A DNA stretch of 64,000 bases, taken from positions 4,819,116-4,883,115 of the forward strand of contig NC_051121.1 of assembly GCF_014839805.1 (NCBI RefSeq). Direction: 5' to 3'. Source of the stretch: Manduca sexta (taxonomy: Eukaryota; Arthropoda; Insecta; Lepidoptera; Sphingidae). The position numbers and the translations under genes were made by a program. How positions within the stretch are numbered: position 1 is the stretch's first letter; each line of letters starts with the position of its first letter. Below are positions 21,011-43,781 of this stretch, piece after piece. The notes below the pieces were generated by a model. The model searched no databases. It was not told the origin of the DNA and worked only from the letters and a program-made list of their open reading frames with translations.

Positions 21011-21025
21011 ATACGGCGACTGCCT

Positions 21026-21822
21026 TTTTACGTAGGTAAATCGTCAGTTGACTATCTCCCGCCTTGGGATGGGCGGGAGGGCGTGTCAGACTTTTACTGA
21101 CTAAGAACCTACGGTGTTCCCATCCTTTGCCTATGTGCCTAGGTCCAAGATCCGGTGGCATTGAGACCTAGGCAGGCACCGGCCCTAAAGGGCCCCGCAA
21201 ATTATACTGACACTGCTCTTCGAGGCGCGCGTGGAACACTACGCGCCGTACACACGGAAGCCGTTAGGGGTGTTTCGGGCGACGAGCTACCCAATGCTCG
21301 TCACCCGACGGTCCGCGCCTACGGAGGCCGACGATCCTCAGCAGACGTTCGACGCCCGCGTCTTGTGCGTCTGCCGTGGCGGATGGGACGTTGGGCGCTT
21401 TGGCGCCGTATCCGTTCCGCCACCTCCTTTGCGAGCATCACGTCCTCGCAGAAGGAGGTGACTGCGTCCACTCTCTCTCGCCCCGGAGCATGGCTTCTAC
21501 CAGGCCCCGACGCGAGAGGTCTCCGCCACCTATGGCCGTTGTGAGAACACGGCGGTGCTCAGCCCAAGCTGGGCACACCTCCACCGTATGCTCCACCGTG
21601 TCCTCCGGCCGATCCGCACAGTAAAACTCTCGGGCGTATCCTCCACCCGGATCCGATACAGGTACCTGCCGAAGCAGCCGTGACCGGTCAGTACCTGCGT
21701 CGTCCGGAATGAGAGGACGCCGTGACGTCTCGTCAGCCACACCTCGAAGAGGGGACTTACCGCCGCTATCGTGGCGTGCCCAGCCAAGGGTTGCGACAGT
21801 CGTTGTCGCCATTCCGCCATGA
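21026..21822 (-). mobile_element. 5'-truncated GC-rich LINE with 15-bp target duplication
   Basis: Flanked by ATACGGCGACTGCCT at 21011-21025 and 21823-21837. The element lies on the minus strand with its short A tail (TTTTT on plus) next to 21025. It is strikingly GC-rich. The minus-strand frames give the C-terminal end of an ORF2: RRHGVLSFRTTQVLTGHGCF, then YCADRPEDTVEHTVEVCPAW, then AEHRRVLTTAIGGGDLS, the family's terminal zinc-finger region. The frames do not join without frameshifts, so it is dead. The 3' untranslated region has a GGCGGGAG-containing inverted repeat near 21060-21080. The second copy is at 43302-43781. Confidence 0.8.
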
Positions 21823-22182: not shown

Positions 22183-22186
22183 ATAG
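22183..22186. repeat. Target-site duplication ATAG, left
   Basis: Matches ATAG at 26774-26777 on the other side of the LTR element. Confidence 0.7.
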
Positions 22187-22506
22187 AGTTAGCAAATTCT
22201 TCTAGAAGACCGGGAGGCTTAGTTTAGCTGCAACTATAACGTAGGATTATATCCTCTTTGGTTTAAAATGGCCAGCTCGCGCTGACCATTGCGTCGTCGA
22301 TATATTTGTTTGAGCTGTCATTAATTAATTGTTGGATCGGACGGACGTTCACAATCTTTTCGCTAGCTATTTTTGTGTTCTTGATTATTTGTTAATTTGA
22401 TACAAATTATTCTCTTTTGTAAATTAGTACAGTTTTTGTTATAAGTAATAATGACTATTTTAGTTTATGTTAATTTTTATAATAAATAAATGTAAAAACC
22501 CTAAAT
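22187..22506 (+). repeat. 5' LTR of gypsy-type element (320 bp)
   Basis: Begins AGTTAGC and ends CCCTAAAT. By eye it is identical over its full length to 26454-26773. AGTTA starts are usual for insect gypsy/17.6-type LTRs. An AATAAATAAATG near 22483-22492 could serve as a poly(A) signal. Confidence 0.9.
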
Positions 22507-22520
22507 TCAGAAGTGGGATT
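22507..22520 (+). promoter_or_regulatory. Possible primer-binding site, tRNA-Leu-like
   Basis: TCAGAAGTGGGATT follows the 5' LTR immediately. It matches, from memory, the complement of the 3' arm of animal tRNA-Leu, but the leading TGGTG that would pair with the tRNA CCA end is missing. The assignment is tentative. Confidence 0.4.
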
Positions 22521-22604
22521 GTGCCACATTCTGACGCCATTTTCTAAGACGTGTATAAAATTTAAATTCTTTGTTTTTAATCCCTACTTTCTTGTTTGTT
22601 CGCC

Positions 22605-23463
22605 ATGCCGAATATTAAAATTAAAAGTGGAACTAGGAGTCGTGAACGTTCTTCCGTTTCGAGAATTGAGCAACAGCTTGAATCTGTAATTTCTAGATTA
22701 AATGCGTTTGAATAAAATGATTCCAGGATTCACAATGCAGATAAAATTACTGTGTGTGCTGAGGTGACTTCGCGTGCACTGCAGCTACCCGCGTGACAAA
22801 CCGCACGCTCGCTTACACCACCGATGCCGTGCGGGCCTGGAGGACCTGAGGCTGGAGGTTCACTACCAGCAACGCCTAGCAATGTATCCCGCGCATGTAG
22901 CGTGGATGCGTGCGTCGCCTTCCACCACCGAAGGTGTTATGAATGAGGTGACAAATAAGCTAGTAACAGTCATCAAGGCGCTTAACCCGGTAAGATCCAA
23001 TCAAATATTTATTTCGAATTTTGACCCATCCTTACATAATTTTAATGTGTGGTGTAATGAGGTAGAACATCTGCAAAATATTAACCGATGGGACGACCGT
23101 GAATGTTTAGCACGTATAGGCCTTTGTCTAAAAGGTGATGCTCGTATCTGGCTTAATGAGTGGACAACTAATGATCGCTCTTGGTCGAATTTCAAACGAG
23201 AGTTCCAATCATTGTGCCCGCGTCGAGTAGATATTGCAAATATTCTTATCGAAGTTTTAAAAACCGATTCAGATCAGTATTCTACATATTCTGAATATGC
23301 TAGACGTTTACTAGTGCGTTTAAGAATTGTTCGGGGGTTAAGTGAGGAACTAATTTCTGCGATTATAGTGCGTGGCATAACAGAGCTTCAAATTCGGTCA
23401 GCTGCTATGAATACGAATTTGTTACCTTGTGATATAGTTAGCTTTTTATCAGTTTTATATTAA
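22605..23463 (+). pseudogene. Broken gag of the gypsy-type element
   Basis: An ATG at 22605 opens 36 codons (MPNIKIKSGTRSRERSS, then IEQQLESVISRLNAF) ending in TAA at 22713. The frame continues in register to another stop, then shifts to the long frame 22774-23463. That frame contains the retrotransposon gag core: FDPSLHNFNVWCNEVEH, CLKGDARIWLNEWT, WSNFKREFQSLCPR and YARRLLVRLRIVRGLSEEL. The order and spacing match the Retrotrans_gag domain of Ty3/gypsy elements. The first part of the long frame (22774-22930) is much more GC-rich than the rest and may be foreign. At least one stop and one frameshift make it non-functional. Confidence 0.8.
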
Positions 23464-23795
23464 ACCTTATTCGAAGGCACAGATCAAATCACGTCCTAAT
23501 AATAATCCTAACAATAAAAACTATTCGCACAAAAAGATAATTCAGGTGCTAAGTCAAAATGTTTTACTTGTGGGGAGTTTGGACATAAACAGACCACTTG
23601 CTCTAAACGTTTTAAACAAAATAACGAATCTGATAAAAATCAGTCGTCAACTTCGAAGCGGTTTTATACAGATAGCTTAGTATTAAGGTCTGAACCGTGT
23701 GGCTTTTGCAAAAAGATGGGTCATAGGTCGAAGATTGTTTCGCAAAACAGCGTATTAAATCACGCAGAAAATCTAATGTAAATTTTTGAAGCGAA
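23464..23795 (+). pseudogene. Nucleocapsid region with two CCHC zinc knuckles
   Basis: After the gag stop, another frame gives PYSKAQIKSRPNNNPNN, then a shift leads into the first knuckle CFTCGEFGHKQTTC (23560-23601). The second knuckle begins CGFCKKMGHRSK at 23698. Its last cysteine is reached only after a one-base shift near 23735. Paired CCHC knuckles are usual in several gypsy lineages. At least two frame changes are present. Confidence 0.75.
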
Positions 23796-23814
23796 GCTGT
23801 AAATGAATACAAGT

Positions 23815-24180
23815 TTAATGATATTGCAGCTACAGTGATTCAAGGGGTTCCTGTAGATATTCTTATAGACAGTGGTTCTCAAATTTCTTTAATAGCGGAA
23901 TCAGTAACCAAACATTTTCAGTGTACCCAAACTCCTTCTTTTTGTACATTGCGTGGTATTGGAAGTGATCATATTGAGTAGACTCAAGTTAACGTAGTAG
24001 AAAAGCTAGAGCTTTTCTACTACGTTAACTGTTGAATTTCCTGAGATTACACTTGAACTAGATTTCCACGTGGTGCCCGATCAATATTTCAGTATTCTTG
24101 TAATATTGGGTACCGATTTACTTAATATAGAGGGTGTGGTTTATACCCGAATGCGAGGTGCTCAAAGTTTAACGTGATCC
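23815..24180 (+). pseudogene. Retroviral-type aspartic protease, broken
   Basis: Reads IQGVPVDILIDSGSQISLIA, with the catalytic D-S-G at 23868-23876, and later DFHVVPDQYFSILVILGTD and the LLNIEG end typical of the protease tail (ILGTDLL). A TAG occurs at about 23979. A 44-bp palindrome at 23987-24030 then interrupts the sequence. Confidence 0.75.
23987..24030. repeat. Perfect 21-bp palindrome with 2-bp spacer
   Basis: Arms at 23987-24007 and 24010-24030 are exact reverse complements, separated by AG. The arm starts AGTTAACGTAGTAG. The fold-back sits inside the protease reading region and destroys it. It looks like a template-switch product. Confidence 0.85.
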
Positions 24181-24207
24181 AAGTCAGTTTTTGATGTACA
24201 ATTAGTT

Positions 24208-24816
24208 GTGCATCAATTCAATATTAATACTTCTGTTATTGGTATTGAGAGGGAGCAGTTACTTTCTGTAATTAATGAATTTTCTAATTTTTTCGTTACT
24301 GGTACAACCATTACTACTGTTACCACTGGATCAATGCATACTCGGTTGCACAATAAAACACCCATAGTGTATAGACCATACAAAACGTCCTATCATGAGA
24401 AAATACGAGTCCAAGAGATAGTTAAAGATTTGCTCGATAAAGGGATAATTAGAGAACCGGAATCTGAGTTCTCTAGTCACATTCTTCTTGTGAAGAAGAA
24501 AGACGGTAGTAACAGAATGTGTGTGGACTTCCGTGCATTAAATGCAATTACTGTTAAAAATCGCTATACGTTAACACTTATTAAAGACCATATAGATCGT
24601 TTTTGGGCAAGGCCGTCTATTTTACTAGCCTTGACATGGCTACAGGCTTTCATCAAATTAAAATGGATAACGATTCAATTCAATGTACGGGCTTCGTAAC
24701 GCCTGAAGGGTATTGCGAGTATCTTAAAGTGCCAAGTGCCATATGAACTTGGCAACGCCCCTGTCGTATACCAACGTATGATAAGTAATACTCTGCGGCT
24801 AAAGATTTCTTATGTT
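24208..24816 (+). pseudogene. Reverse transcriptase of the gypsy-type element, N-terminal half
   Basis: The frame 24208-24699 contains VNEFSNFF-like linker text, YRPYKTSYHEKIRVQEIV, LLDKGIIREPESEFSSHILL, VKKKDGSNRMCVDFRALN and KNRYTLTLIKDHIDRF, i.e. RT motifs 1-2. The next motif (LDMATGFHQIKM, about 24632-24668) is in a different frame because of an indel near 24625. The motif TPEGYCEYLKVP and a degraded NAPVVYQRM segment follow to about 24780. Confidence 0.82.
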
Positions 24817-24960
24817 TACGCAGAATGAGCTCACAGTGTCTTGCAAGTCTAGCAGCCGGTCTTTTGGGTTCCGATTTAATTAAATGTCGAACTGGATCCC
24901 AGGCTTGTACAAGCTTCCAACCATCTTCCCTATTGAACTCTACGACCTTTTATTGAATCT
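24817..24960 (-). other. Foreign patch inside RT, coding-like on the minus strand
   Basis: The gypsy RT sequence is interrupted here. Read on the minus strand, the patch gives an open stretch with EDGWKLVQAWDPVRHLIKSE and KRPAARLARHCELILRK, more protein-like than the plus strand. It runs on antisense into RT, so the true border is about 24817. The plus-strand word CGCAGAATGAGCTCACAGTG recurs near 54877. I do not recognise the family; it may be a piece of another retroelement. Confidence 0.4.
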
Positions 24961-25550
24961 GGCAAGGTGCTTGTATATATCGATGATTATAGTCGAGGTA
25001 CACTCGCGCGCCATGGTCTACGTGACTATCGCGGTGAGCGCGCAGGCACACCTCATTGGTCGGGAAGATGTCACGTGCGACGCCTGGATACACCGTGTTT
25101 CGGATACTCGCCGTTACGAGGTGTATCGTGCAGGCAATGTACTGCGACCTATACGGACGGGGAGTCTGCCACTAGTCACTGCTCTATGATGTATTCGTAC
25201 CAAGCATGACGGTCGAGGAAGGTTTGCATACTCTCAGAGAAGTATTAAGGACTTTGACTACTGCAGGTTTTTCAATAAATCTTAAGGAGTGTACTTTTAT
25301 TACGAAGGAGATTGAATATTTGAGTCGTACAATATGTTTTGGTCAGGTAAAGCCGAGCGCGTATAAAATCGAAGCTCTAGTTAAATCTTGTATACCTAAC
25401 AACGTTAAGAAGGTGAGACAATTTTTAGGTCTCGCTGGATACTTCAGGAGATACATACCTGGATATTCATTGCGAACGAGATGTATCGCTGATCTACTCC
25501 GCAAAGGTGTGCAGTACCAATGGAGGTGGAAACTCCCTTTTTAACAAACA
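24961..25550 (+). pseudogene. Reverse transcriptase catalytic part with an insert
   Basis: GKVLVYIDD-like text puts the YIDD catalytic motif at 24976-24987. The RT sequence is then broken by a GC-rich insert (about 24992-25205). It resumes at 25206 with TVEEGLHTLREVLRTLTTAG, FSINLKECTFITKEIEYLSR, then QVKPSAYKIEALV, VRQFLGLAGYFRRYI and CIADLLRKGVQYQW. After this the gypsy sequence stops. The expected RNase H and integrase are missing. Confidence 0.8.
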
Positions 25551-25839
25551 CTTATATGTTTTAGGTATCATCGACAGACCCCTTTGCAGGGAATGTCTGT
25601 CGGATGACGAAACAGCCTCCCATGTTATCCTGGAATGCGGAGGTGTAGCTGCACAGCGGGCTGAAATCCTCGCTACACCGGGGTCACTCCGAGAAGCCTG
25701 TGGAGGAGTCATGAAGATCCTGCGCTTCTGGAAGGAGTGGGGCTGGCTAGACCCAGAGCCGGCATTCCGCACAAAACGGCCCGATCTACTAAGCGCTAAG
25801 TGTATTTCGAGTATCCCGAGGGCTCTACTCATAGTGTAA
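25520..25839 (+). pseudogene. Captured C-terminal end of a LINE ORF
   Basis: The frame 25507-25839 gives NSLFNKHLYVLGIIDRPLCR, then ECLSDDETASHVILECGGVA, then AQRAEILATPGSLREACGG and ILRFWKEWGWLDPEP, ending SIPRALLIV and TAA. This is the terminal zinc-finger-like segment (C-C-H-C) after the reverse transcriptase and RNase H of certain non-LTR retrotransposons. The frame is intact to its stop. The junction with gypsy RT is at about 25520-25526, just after the QYQW codons. The final codons already form the first hairpin of the array that follows, so the array belongs to this LINE end and not to gypsy. Confidence 0.78.
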
Positions 25840-26247
25840 TGCATCCTGAGGGCTCTGCATTTGTGGTACGCTCCGCACCCAAGGGGCGGCGGATGTAGTA
25901 CTGATAACGCACCCTGAGGGCTCTGCGTTTGTTGGGTGTACATCCCGAGGGCTCTGTACATCCATATTTACTAGTAACCTGAGGGCTCTGCTAGTGTATT
26001 TTGAGATAACCTGAGGGCTCTGTCTCTAATTTGCGTTTCTTGAATTGTATATCCTGAGGGCTCTGTACATTCATATTTACTAGTAACCTGAGGGCTCTGC
26101 TATTTTAGTTTTGAGATAAACTGAGGGCTCTGTCTCTTACTCTGCGTTTCTTGAATTGTATATCCTGAGGGCTCTGTACATTCATACTATCTAGTAACCT
26201 GAGGGCTCTGCTAGTTTAGTTCTGAGATATCCTGAGGGCTCTGTCTC
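25809..26247 (+). repeat. Array of twelve hairpins with a conserved 14-nt loop
   Basis: Twelve units share a loop of the form A-N-C/A-C-C/T-GAGGGCTCT. Loop starts are about 25813, 25843, 25911, 25942, 25976, 26008, 26051, 26085, 26118, 26162, 26196 and 26229. Each loop is flanked by complementary arms that differ between units: GAGT/ACTC, AATGC/GCATT, AACGC/GCGTT, GGGTGTAC/GTACATCC (one G-U), ACTAG/CTAGT, GAGA/TCTC and TGTA/TACA. Unit 8 has one stem mismatch. From 25942 the units repeat in sets of three with a period of about 110 bp. No coding role is seen after unit 1. A separate GC hairpin (CCGCACCC with GGGGCGG) lies at about 25873-25890. Confidence 0.9.
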
Positions 26248-26453
26248 TTACTTTTTAACCATTTATTGACTGACTTCTCTAATATATAAAAATGTGTTTT
26301 AAAGGTGATGAGGATGAGATCGAAGATCACAGAACGAGTGGAAGCAACGTTGAAAGTTCGTTGCAAGAAGTTGGGTTCATGTTGACAAGTTGCAGCGGTC
26401 ATCCAGCCCAAGCCACAATACGGGCGAGGACGCACCTTCTTCAGGAGAGGCCG
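26248..26453 (+). other. Gypsy element tail before the 3' LTR
   Basis: An open stretch from about 26294 reads KGDEDEIEDHRTSGSNVE, then SLQEVGFMLTSCSGHPAQAT, and ends in a TAG formed within the LTR start. It may be the extreme C-terminus of a pol or integrase frame. AGGAGAGGCCG at 26443-26453 is the likely polypurine tract. Confidence 0.5.
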
Positions 26454-26773
26454 AGTTAGCAAATTCTTCTAGAAGACCGGGAGGCTTAGTTTAGCTGCAA
26501 CTATAACGTAGGATTATATCCTCTTTGGTTTAAAATGGCCAGCTCGCGCTGACCATTGCGTCGTCGATATATTTGTTTGAGCTGTCATTAATTAATTGTT
26601 GGATCGGACGGACGTTCACAATCTTTTCGCTAGCTATTTTTGTGTTCTTGATTATTTGTTAATTTGATACAAATTATTCTCTTTTGTAAATTAGTACAGT
26701 TTTTGTTATAAGTAATAATGACTATTTTAGTTTATGTTAATTTTTATAATAAATAAATGTAAAAACCCTAAAT
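26454..26773 (+). repeat. 3' LTR of gypsy-type element (320 bp)
   Basis: Same sequence as 22187-22506 by eye, with no difference found, and followed by the ATAG duplication at 26774-26777. Confidence 0.9.
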
Positions 26774-26777
26774 ATAG

Positions 26778-27211
26778 TTTATACGAAACACCGTTCCTTC
26801 TTTTTTTCGTCCGTATTTTCAAATTCATAATTTAGTTACTTAGTAATAAGTGCTCTTTTTGTACTAACTGGCGTTGTTAAAGCCTCATTAATTTAAATTA
26901 CGTAGACTGACTCGGGGTTTTTAAATTTTGATATCTAACACAAGAATAAATTGTAATAAGAAACGTTTTCGCTGAGAAGCAAGTCTTATTGACATAATCT
27001 ATACTGTTCATATAACTGAAGAGATTTTTCTTTATTTTAAGTCTCTTTTGTTTTGATATGATTCTGAAAAATCGTTCATTGCTTAGCAATTATTATTTCT
27101 GCTACTATAAATTGCTAATATCAAAGCCCAGCATGGCAATTATAAGGCTATTGGTCTGAAACATCGTTCATATATCTATACATGTAACTAATTTTTGCTC
27201 ACAGCGTCGCT
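26778..27211. other. AT-rich intronic DNA, nothing recognised
   Basis: No supported gene or repeat. The 63-residue minus-strand frame has no resemblance to known families. Confidence 0.4.
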
Positions 27212-27412
27212 TATAGTGGAGTGGGGTCCAATAGAATGTCGACTGACGAGAGATGATTAGCCATCGGTAGTCGACACTATTATGCCGGCCTGTTGGTACT
27301 GGGCTATACACAGGCTGATCCCGTAACGCGACACACTTACACGATACACTATGGCGGGTTTTAACCGGTGGTCGCTATCCGGGCGGATATAAAATATATC
27401 CTACCACCAGAT
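27212..27412 (+). repeat. Dispersed repeat, family D
   Basis: Marked by GGGGTCCAATAGAATGTCGA, TAGTCGACACTATTATGCCG, CACTATGGCGGGTTTTAACC and GTCGCTATCCGGGCGGAT. Inverted copy at 42462-42655, direct copy at 60575-60722, fragment at 20390. It ends only about 38 bp from the small GRXCR exon. Confidence 0.65.
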
Positions 27413-27449
27413 AATAAATAAGAATATAATATAATGAAACTTCTCTAAC

Positions 27450-27515
27450 CTTATAAGGTTTCAACATTTTCCTCAGCTCGCCGCTTTCGTTGAGTTTCTC
27501 TACCGTGTCAGCGTC
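27450..27515 (-). CDS. GRXCR1-like protein, internal 66-bp exon
   Basis: Exactly 22 codons, phase 0 at both ends: DADTVEKLNESGELRKMLKP followed by YK. It is preceded by the acceptor ATAATTTTATTTCAG (ending 27516) and followed by donor AAG/GTTAGA. The text continues the glutaredoxin fold, following the IDGQHIG end of the upstream exon. It corresponds to the conserved VERLNESGELRxxLxPYK linker helix in GRXCR-family proteins. It joins in frame to the cysteine-rich last exon. It is too short to stand out as an open frame, and was found by completing the protein between the two larger exons. No defects are visible. Confidence 0.9.
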
Positions 27516-27724
27516 CTGAAATAAAATTATATCAAAAATAAATAAGAATCAAAATGTATCGACATATTAAAATCACATCAATGCTATTATTTATCTTATA
27601 TTAGGACATGATACCAGATCGAATCATCAAATATCACTGGAATTATTTATGTTAGAAGATGTAGAAAACCATCGATATATTATTTGTACTGAACATATAT
27701 CAATGTAGAAAACCCATTTGTATG

Positions 27725-27774
27725 TAGGTATATGAGAAAATCCAAATGTAGGTATATGAGAAAATCCAAATGTA
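27725..27774. repeat. Two tandem copies of a 24-bp unit
   Basis: TGTAGGTATATGAGAAAATC plus CAAA is repeated twice in direct tandem. Confidence 0.7.
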
Positions 27775-29034
27775 TATTCAAAAATAGAATACAATTTAGT
27801 AGGAATTTCAGTATTTAATTTTTTATTTTATTATAGTACAGTTACAGAAACAAACAGTGTAACAACAAAAATAAATTATTACAAATTACTTAATACGTAA
27901 TGCCAATAAAGTTTCCAACATCTAAAAAGAACGGCTATGAATCTCTATCTTTTTCTCTATTAATAAATAAGGCCGGCTTTTAGACGTCTCGTAAATGTTA
28001 CAAAAAAGTATACTTTTAATACAATTGTTTAAAACAGATACAACAGTTATTTGAAGAAACACAACAAACTGTTCGTAAACTTTGAAAATGCACACGTGTA
28101 AGAAAATCACGCTTCCGCTAGCGAAGATGTTTTCACTTCCGTTTCCGTCGCTTATCGAAGTTAAGTTGTCTTGTAAGGAAATGGAGAGACGCAATGCTCT
28201 TGGAATTCATATGATGGTAAGTGTACTATTTCAATTCGTGAAAAGCACATCAGTGGCGAAGGGTGAAAATTTTCAAAAGGGAACCCGACGAAATATTTTT
28301 TTCTACAGTTAACATAATATATTACGCTGTTCACAATAAATTAAAATCAGTAAAATATCATAATACTTAATAATTTCCTTCTAAAATATGTCTAGTCTCT
28401 AAATTTAAGTACAAAATAATCATATATTTTGAACATAGGTACCTAAAAGAGTCCAACAAGAATTAATAACGCACAAACACTAATTATACATTCTAAATTA
28501 TTAAAAATATTTCGCGCCAATAGATCAACATGAAGCCGCAAATTCTCGGGTTACCCTGAAGTACACAGACACGCATGCACACTTGTATTTTTACGTCACT
28601 TCCAAAAGATTAGACAAAGACACCGCGCTGCGTGTGAAAGAGACAACAATATCGCGAGGGAAGCTATGCACTGCGCGCGAGTTACGATTGAACGAATTGA
28701 TAGGAATGACAGATATCACTGAAGTATTGATTTAATTTAATAAATATAAGATGACTTGTTTGAATATACTATATTTATTCTAGTTATATTGTTATGTTTT
28801 TCTTTTATTATTTTTAATTAATTTACAAAAGGTAACCCGATAGGAATCGGCTTGTATGGACGCTTCGCCACTGAAGCACATCGAAACTTTATCACCAGAT
28901 TGAAATTTTTAATAAACGATTTTAGTTTAGCTATGAGAGGGCAGTTAGGTAAAGACTAATATTTAATAATTTATGTATATATATGTATAGAAGATGTGTG
29001 TATGTATGTTCCTTATGGACTTAAACTGAAGCTA

Positions 29035-43301: not shown

Positions 43302-43781
43302 TTTTTTTTTTTTTTTTTTTTATTTTTTTTTACCTAGGTAAATCGTCAGTTGACTATCTCCCGCCTTGGGATGGGCGGGAGGGCGTGTCAGACTTTTACC
43401 GACTAAGAACCTACGGTGTTCCCATCCTTTGCCTATGTGCCTAGGTCCAAGATCCGGTGGCATTGAGACCTAGGCAGGCACCGGCCCTAAGGGGCCCCGC
43501 AAATTACTCTGACACTGCTCTTCGAGGCGCGCGTGGAACACTACGCGCCGAACACACGGGCCGTTGGGGTGTTTCGGGCGACGGGCTACCCAATGCTCGT
43601 CACCCGACGGTCCGCGCCTACGGAGGCCGACGATCCTCAGCAGACGTTCGACGCCCGCGTCTTGTGCGTCTGCCGTGGCGGATGGGACGTTGGGCGCTTT
43701 GGCGCCGTATCCGCTCCGACGTGACGTCTCGTCAGCCACACCTCGAAGAGGGGACTTACCGCCGCTATAGTGGCGTGCCCA
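43302..43781 (-). mobile_element. Truncated, internally deleted GC-rich LINE
   Basis: Second copy of the LINE at 21026, on the minus strand. Its poly(A) tail shows as a T run at 43302-43331 on the plus strand. It is flanked by the 14-bp duplication TTTTATAATAAGCG. Relative to copy one it lacks about 300 bp: sequence equivalent to 21418 is joined to that of 21720 near 43715-43722. The 5' end is truncated at 43781. Plus-strand frames of 63-110 residues here are GC-driven shadows. Confidence 0.85.

Follow-up and report, generated by a model that had tools for sequence, protein, structure and literature searches.

Retroviral packaging and dimerisation hairpins are carried by the unspliced RNA only, lie near its 5′ end and are few in number, and to our knowledge the way in which animal LTR retrotransposons distinguish an unspliced genome from a spliced message is poorly known outside the retroviruses. 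According to an excerpt of PMC4176376, the tails of the LINEs ZfL2-1 and ZfL2-2 tolerate stem swaps if pairing is kept but not loop swaps, so that a retroelement protein can read a fixed loop on an exchangeable stem; in the UnaL2 tail, stem changes lowered activity. For the type-D retroviruses SRV-1 and MPMV, an excerpt of PMC4330390 describes a CTE that is bound by NXF1:NXT1 and exports unspliced RNA, that comprises two lobes, each able to bind, and that has a counterpart in a CTE-like motif of a retained intron. Packaging of Ty3 genomic RNA by the Gag zinc finger is reported in part of PMC4974528, and the part of PMC10309623 on Cer1, a Ty3/Gypsy element of C. elegans, gives its CERV protein as needed to export unspliced genomic RNA.

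The window, that is the whole 64,000-nucleotide stretch of Manduca sexta DNA that was analysed, contains an array of hairpins in an LTR retrotransposon. As far as titles and the openings of abstracts go, no comparable element or hairpin array was found in the open-licence literature, and the matches listed for the letters CTGAGGGCTCTG were, by title, vertebrate or human studies.

Probable hairpins with a common loop

Twelve exact GAGGGCTCT sites were found in the window, all on one strand, with starts from 25818 to 26234 and ends to 26242, and a search allowing one mismatch gave 15 matches where 3.37 were expected. The preliminary description had reported twelve units with a 14-nt segment between pairing arms, and in 12/12 units the arms indeed pair over 4–9 bp (Watson-Crick and G-U) around a 14-nt core, A-N-[CA]-C-[TC]-GAGGGCTCT; every stem is one pair longer through an A-U pair within the loop as first stated. 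Core and arm pairing define, on the forward strand like all features below, hairpin 1 (GAGT/ACTC, 25808–25831), hairpin 2 (AATGC/GCATT, 25838–25861), hairpin 3 (AACGC/GCGTT, 25906–25929), hairpin 4 of the T type (GGGTGTAC/GTACATCC, 25937–25960), hairpin 5 of the A type (ACTAGT/GCTAGT, 25971–25994) and hairpin 6 of the G type (GAGAT/GTCTC, 26003–26026), followed by hairpins 7, 8 and 9 (T, A and G types; 26046–26069, 26080–26103 and 26113–26136) and hairpins 10, 11 and 12 (again T, A and G; 26157–26180, 26191–26214 and 26224–26247). Units 4–12 are three copies of a 111-nt block with one T, A and G hairpin in each (25924–26031, 26032–26142 and 26143–26250; 25924–26250 overall), and the window therefore holds about six independent stems, not twelve. 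The condition named at the outset as refuting the observation, that the units are plain tandem copies of one palindrome, holds for the blocks but fails for stems that differ inside one block or from one element type to the other. Hairpin 8 has lost one stem pair and hairpin 9 has one changed loop base.

The arms GAGT/ACTC, AACGC/GCGTT and GAGA/TCTC had been described as inverted and not direct repeats, and their longest direct repeats of 3–4 nt bear this out. Direct repeats or target duplications were rejected as the origin of the arms, the longest direct repeat being 3–5 nt in 11 units and reaching 9 nt in the remaining one, hairpin 4. A hairpin of a different kind, lacking the GAGGGCTCT loop, occupies a unit's place at 25864–25903; it was identified by its fold energy and by its sequence being kept in the related element L113, and the fold of 25860–25908 (−19.2 kcal/mol) was reached by 4 of 500 mononucleotide shuffles. 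A search of positions 24000–28000 against Rfam 15 at E up to 1 gave two matches, both below the gathering score and both outside the array, which matched no RNA family described there.

A second array, of ten units (eight GAGGGCTCT and two GAGAGCTCT), is carried by another element, L103, where nearly the same loop is borne by stems such as GGAC/GTCC, ATCGC/GCGAT, TTGTGT/GCACAA and ATTATGT/GCATAAT, which differ from those of the window. Among the six distinct arm classes of the window, 29 of 30 innermost positions pair with their own partner, a value reached by the true assignment alone among all 720 right-to-left arm reassignments, and sliding one arm side alone abolishes the pairing. As controls, stems of at least 4 were found at 1,611 of 63,850 window positions and at 8 of 163 exact GAGGGCTCT sites in bacterial and viral-contig loci (L001–L072; 40 bacterial stretches and one viral contig with spaced CTGAGGGCTCT, and 31 viral stretches with one core); these look-alikes were discarded on the latter count. 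When the six window units were aligned with the ten L103 units, 94.5% of cells were paired compared with 71.1% in 500 shuffles, and covariation was 0.698 compared with 0.207, with 0/500 shuffles as high in either measure; slid registers gave at most 51.6% pairing. The proposal of a fixed loop on an exchangeable paired stem is supported and gained strength from ten further hairpins, and the arms differ yet pair around a nearly constant core in two element types.

The inner pair (columns 11–16 of the 16 units) is C-G in 14 cases and U-A in another, with a single unit in which it is broken, a small sign that hints at a predicted inner step, CC-YGAG-GG, of which the YGAG would presumably fit the YNMG class of stable tetraloops. 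Between hairpins 4 and 7, as read by eye, three pairs are altered (G-C to A-U, G.U to A-U and C-G to U.G), one of them on both sides, and all remain pairs. The 243 units of 19 arrays reduce to 27 distinct 24-mers, 21 of which have all six lower pairs intact. G.U cells outnumber A.C cells by 17 to 1 in these 27, which are related and have most of their G.U cells at one position, and by 7 to 2 in the 16-unit set (p 0.18); the excess in the distinct units favours sense-strand RNA as the folding form, and folding of the hairpins in sense RNA is likely.

In the folding check suggested at the outset, local hairpins are predicted at short pairing limits, and the energy of the whole array is not below that of shuffles (z −0.19 and, in a second analysis, −0.91 to +0.48). 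With pairing limited to 40 nt, hairpins exceeded a probability of 0.5 in 6/12 units of the window, 6/10 of L103 and 8/9 of L113; at 60 nt the counts were 6/12, 4/10 and 3/9, and at up to 120 nt or without limit they fell to 0–3 hairpins per array. A slightly shorter stretch of the window gave 9/12. By these predictions, pairing over longer distances displaces many of the hairpins when partners may lie more than ∼40 nt apart, and co-transcriptional folding or a protein would be needed to hold them.

The host element and its last intron

The array is hosted by a Ty3/Gypsy-type LTR retrotransposon, of which the window copy (22187–26773) is a pol-deleted derivative recognised by its LTR pair, its target duplication and its gag, protease and partial reverse transcriptase (RT) similarity to the L103 proteins (tblastn). 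Its LTRs (22187–22506 and 26454–26773) are identical over 321 aligned nt and are flanked, as read by eye, by the 4-bp target duplication ATAG (22183–22186 and 26774–26777). The assignment combines these LTRs and the short duplication with the protease–RT–RNase H–integrase order, which was established in L103. The gag remnant (22768–23463) is a stop-to-stop frame with a tblastn match to the L103 gag-protease frame and a weak Ty3_capsid match (E 0.0021, under the Pfam cut-off), and the last part of the RT (25176–25536) has 66% identity to L103 pol residues 115–226 and a weak RVT_1 match (E 0.043, also under the cut-off). The rest of pol, including RNase H and integrase, gave no match in the window copy by tblastn with the L103 proteins. 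A pair of direct LTRs was found at 10 of 12 loci, with none in L110 and nested pieces in L114, and inspection by eye showed 4-bp duplications for the window copy and for L103, L105, L107 and L108. L103 has two frames, one for gag and protease and one for pol, the latter with domains for RT, RNase H, H2C2 and integrase (in order gag-asp_proteas, just below cut-off, RVT_1, RNase H, H2C2 and rve); its pol is 62–82% identical to the L113 pol pieces and had no match in viral contigs, and its gag frame contains two CCHC zinc knuckles, read by eye. Elsewhere in the window, a 395-bp segment occurs twice (21025–21419 and 43327–43718) with 97% identity.

The intron is defined in the L103-type copies. 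L103 has a donor at TTCGAGG/GTAAGT and an acceptor at TTTTCAG/ATGACG, the 408 nt between them hold the whole array, and one frame is open from the acceptor until just inside the 3′ LTR. Without splicing, L103 pol would end just past hairpin 3. Among five L103-type copies, the 408-nt GT-AG stretch is still present in two (C4 and C6) and is exactly what the other three (C15, C3523 and C1722) lack, the 83-nt joined sequence of L103 being present letter for letter in C15; by this precise junction, the three are copies of spliced RNA. One of them is nearer L103 and the other two are nearer each other by their sequence differences, a pattern that fits one intron loss as well as several. The loci L138, L145 and L146 are three intronless copies of one LTR element and record that its spliced RNA was reverse transcribed and integrated. 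The L113-type elements (L113, L129 and L130) have a like donor (GAGT/GTGAGT), acceptor (AAAG/GTGA) and phase. The window-type copies have no donor, and AAAG/GTGA is kept in L104, L106, L110, L119, L120, L124 and L126, with the preceding stretch differing by one base. In the window itself, the remnant of the 3′ intron (25801–26304, from alignment to L113) begins ∼28 nt into the L113 intron, having lost the donor, and its acceptor end is TTTTAAAG.

Exon 2, which encodes an acidic C-terminal tail of pol and ends in a purine-rich stretch before the 3′ LTR, occupies 26305–26453 of the window, where its frame differs from that of L113 through a one-base length difference. It is open for 50–58 codons from the same acceptor phase in 6/6 loci tested. 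The tails of L103 and L113 (DDDDELQD.. and DEDEIKD..) end near SGEAE at the purine-rich stretch and are like those of L111, L136 and L137. In L103, the exon-2 frame continues open into the intron, for 123 nt before the acceptor. Coding of exon 2 is indicated by its open frame and like ends and is weakly supported by a dN/dS of 0.19 to 0.26 when L113 is compared with the decayed L111.

From these boundaries, the array is placed inside the element's last (3′) intron, filling most of it: the 24-nt hairpins take up 239 nt of the 408-nt intron of L103 and 216 nt of the 417-nt intron of L113. Neither intron has a GTAAGT or GTGAGT beyond its real donor, and the window array has none. In L136 and L137, which are 54–71% identical over pieces, an intron at the same place holds a different tandem repeat, with 11 copies in L136 (1–760, C21) and 9 in L137 (C17) of a 36-nt repeat containing GTAAGT; with the real donors included, the GTAAGT words number 12 and 10. 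The hairpin is therefore not required by the whole clade, and the L136/L137 repeat is possibly an array of decoy splice donors, a design that resembles the decoy donors of retroviruses.

Between the RT remnant and the array, the window copy has captured a LINE-like fragment (∼25546–25800), recognised by a C-x2-C-x8-H-x4-C motif read by eye, with a frame that continues into hairpin 1 and stops at 25837–25839. The frame reads through the junction and the first hairpin (25801–25839), and hairpin 1 would give the peptide SIPRALL if the frame were used. The fragment had no relatives in Pfam, in a search of 5.8 billion proteins or in viral contigs, and PDB matches only at E above 1, so that its LINE origin is read from the motif by itself. 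It is present in 14/14 window-type copies and absent from L113, L129, L130, L103, L107 and L111.

Copies, derivatives and signs of constraint

A search of the genome (470 Mb, 4,056 contigs) with the core pattern gave 319 places, and among the matches listed (100 of 319) the GAGGGCTCT-type loop is clustered. Eleven of 12 neighbourhoods examined contained an array, and the twelfth, L111, had one exact core. The 193 nt downstream of the array, used as a query, gave 20 matches: 14 window-type (97–100%), three L113-type (92%), L111 (84%) and, on C27, two pieces of a single place. Arrays of 9–24 units were found in 14/14 window-type and 3/3 L113-type copies located through this exon-2 region, with up to 24 units in the window type, and they differ from the window array mostly by whole 111-nt blocks. 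L113 and the window are 93% identical in the array, 92% in the region after it and 76% in the LTR. In L111, an old relative, the hairpin model (R1) finds four units whose loops or stems have decayed, and at the C27 place two cores with one mismatch stand between unpaired arms. The same model gave 0 matches in ten further 3′ regions (L135–L144). Another LTR-element 3′ region, L147 325–437 (C1046), has four CTAGA.CC.AGGCGGGTGATG motifs spaced 29–34 nt start to start.

Comparison of the three window blocks shows variation in 3 of 42 columns in loops, 2 of 30 in stems and 14 of 39 in spacers. Fisher tests gave p 0.0013 or 0.0056, depending on the treatment of end and gap columns, and p 0.08 for hairpin versus spacer once the 27 columns of the core, by which the units had been defined, were set aside. 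Over the stretch of the first five units in the 14 window-type copies, varying columns number 1 of 70 in loops, 0 of 48 in stems and 3 of 74 in spacers, beside 13 of 43 LINE-like columns; adding the three L113-type copies brings the counts to 2 for loops, 1 for stems and 10 for spacers.

Two derivatives have lost pol. The window type is missing pol's 3′ half and resumes ∼28 nt inside the intron, and L111 has lost nearly everything past the start of gag and resumes ∼9 nt inside it. Both deletions removed the donor and both retain the array from the first hairpin, and since each derivative keeps sequence that is absent from the other, the deletions were taken as independent. Parasitic derivatives of LTR elements usually retain just the cis-acting parts, and retention of the array in both thus speaks for a cis-acting role. 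Considered as a packaging signal, the array is kept in two pol-less derivatives and absent from three mobilised copies.

Possible roles and known counterparts

The likeliest explanation of the array, to which we give slightly less than an even chance, is that it serves as docking sites for one RNA-binding protein and marks unspliced genomic RNA for export or packaging; control of splicing, a neutral repeat and loop-loop pairing rank after it, in that order. The sense RNA of the last intron would fold into hairpins sharing one loop, each predicted to comprise a lower stem, one base, two C-G pairs, a YGAG tetraloop and a three-base CUC bulge. One protein, the element's zinc-finger Gag or a host factor, would read the loop many times over, the many copies would give avidity, and RNA that kept the intron would thereby be tagged for export or packaging, by analogy with the packaging and export elements of retroviruses. 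Docking is favoured by the differing arms that pair around a loop that hardly varies between two element types sharing 62–82% identity in pieces of pol, and is further supported by the lower variation of loop and stem columns than of spacers among the three blocks, by arrays in every window-type and L113-type copy, in a defined intron and in two donor-less derivatives, and by the two zinc knuckles of the L103 gag frame. Counting against it, three of the five L103-type copies came from spliced RNA, which means that packaging and copying succeeded at least once with an RNA that lacked the array. It is also weakened by the lack of an energy excess over the whole array and the few hairpins predicted at longer pairing range, as well as by the lost pair of hairpin 8, the changed loop of hairpin 9 and the other repeat in the L136 and L137 introns.

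The array could instead control splicing, keeping some RNA unspliced by hiding or looping the splice sites, with the ratio of RNAs encoding pol with and without the acidic tail as its aim. That hairpins occupy most of the intron, that the L136 and L137 introns hold GTAAGT words instead and that genomic copies arose from both spliced and unspliced RNA are all consistent with such control, which we nevertheless think doubtful, as the two donor-less derivatives have nothing to splice and yet keep the array, of up to 24 units in the window type, and the L103 and L113 introns and the window array are free of extra donor words. Less probable again is that the hairpins multiplied without function in a tolerant intron through slippage and block duplication. 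Gain and loss of whole 111-nt blocks, the lack of an energy excess and the existence of intronless copies fit such a history, but neutral copying would carry stems along with loops, whereas here the stems differ yet pair and the loops barely change, and the array is retained in both pol-less derivatives.

Pairing between the near-palindromic GAGGGCTC loops, within or between RNAs, might condense or dimerise the genome in the manner of retroviral kissing loops. The GAG and CTC of the loop are self-complementary, the two GAGAGCTCT loop variants form an 8-nt palindrome with a self-duplex of −12.3 kcal/mol, a value that 31 and 21 of 500 shuffles attained, and the self-duplex of the ACCC loop of hairpin 3 was matched by 29 of 500; self-duplexes of the three commonest loops, however, were no better than shuffles (120, 129 and 148 of 500), and the central GG is conserved though it would be unpaired in an in-register GAG/CTC duplex. 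We consider this explanation rather improbable. The preliminary description had placed the array in the 3′ untranslated region of a LINE and offered, as a plausible role, its recognition by the LINE reverse transcriptase or another RNA-binding protein, a reading drawn from the LINE-like frame directly upstream in the window, which recurs in 13/13 other window-type copies; tolerance of stem swaps by LINE tails, in the excerpt of PMC4176376, agrees with it. We now regard it as very improbable indeed. A LINE tail stands at the 3′ end of a LINE, but the LINE-like piece is missing beside the array of L113, L129 and L130 and beside the arrays of other stems in L103 and L107, where the end of pol and a splice donor lie directly upstream, so that the piece joined the array later. 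The host sequence is an LTR-element intron. The target duplication that would have delimited such a tail, CTTTTTAAC at 25537–25545 and 26251–26259, was likewise dismissed, as comparison with L113 identifies its second copy as the LTR element's own sequence.

Should docking for export or packaging prove correct, the array may represent a new kind of control RNA, a suggestion that we advance with more reserve. Located in an intron and expandable to as many as 24 docking hairpins of constant loop and swappable stems, it would stamp the unspliced genome, would be kept and enlarged by pol-less parasites, and would be replaced at the corresponding place of a sister lineage by an array of decoy donors. 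The sequence by itself is enough to show the candidate signal, and nature provides stem-swap, length (9 to 24 units) and intronless variants, which make the question testable with short RNAs and reporters. If the proposal is true, the loop names a specific RNA-protein pair with natural multivalency that would be useful for tethering.

The nearest counterparts each share part of this design. In the stringent-type LINE tails (ZfL2-1, ZfL2-2 and UnaL2), on the excerpt available, the loop is read by sequence and in ZfL2-1 and ZfL2-2 the stem is exchangeable, as in the window array; the likeness is one of sequence pattern and does not imply membership of that class, since a LINE tail is a stem-loop at the end of a LINE and here many hairpins lie inside the intron of an LTR retrotransposon. 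Cer1 belongs to the same class of elements and faces the same problem of exporting intron-containing RNA, which it solves by an element protein, the part of the report seen naming no hairpin array. As in retroviral packaging, the hairpins are placed so that they occur in unspliced RNA only, and a Gag with CCHC knuckles is present here too; retroviral packaging hairpins are few and near the 5′ end, whereas these are many and in a 3′ intron. With the CTE, as described in the excerpt, the array has in common that it would be a cis-acting RNA structure of repeated modules, situated towards the 3′ end of the retroelement's genome and serving the unspliced RNA, and that it lies within sequence that is spliced out, as indicated by its exact loss from three of five L103-type copies, the window copy having lost the donor. 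The CTE is, however, one two-fold symmetric stem-loop of ∼130 nt, whereas the array is built of 9–24 small, separate hairpins that combine one loop with different stems.
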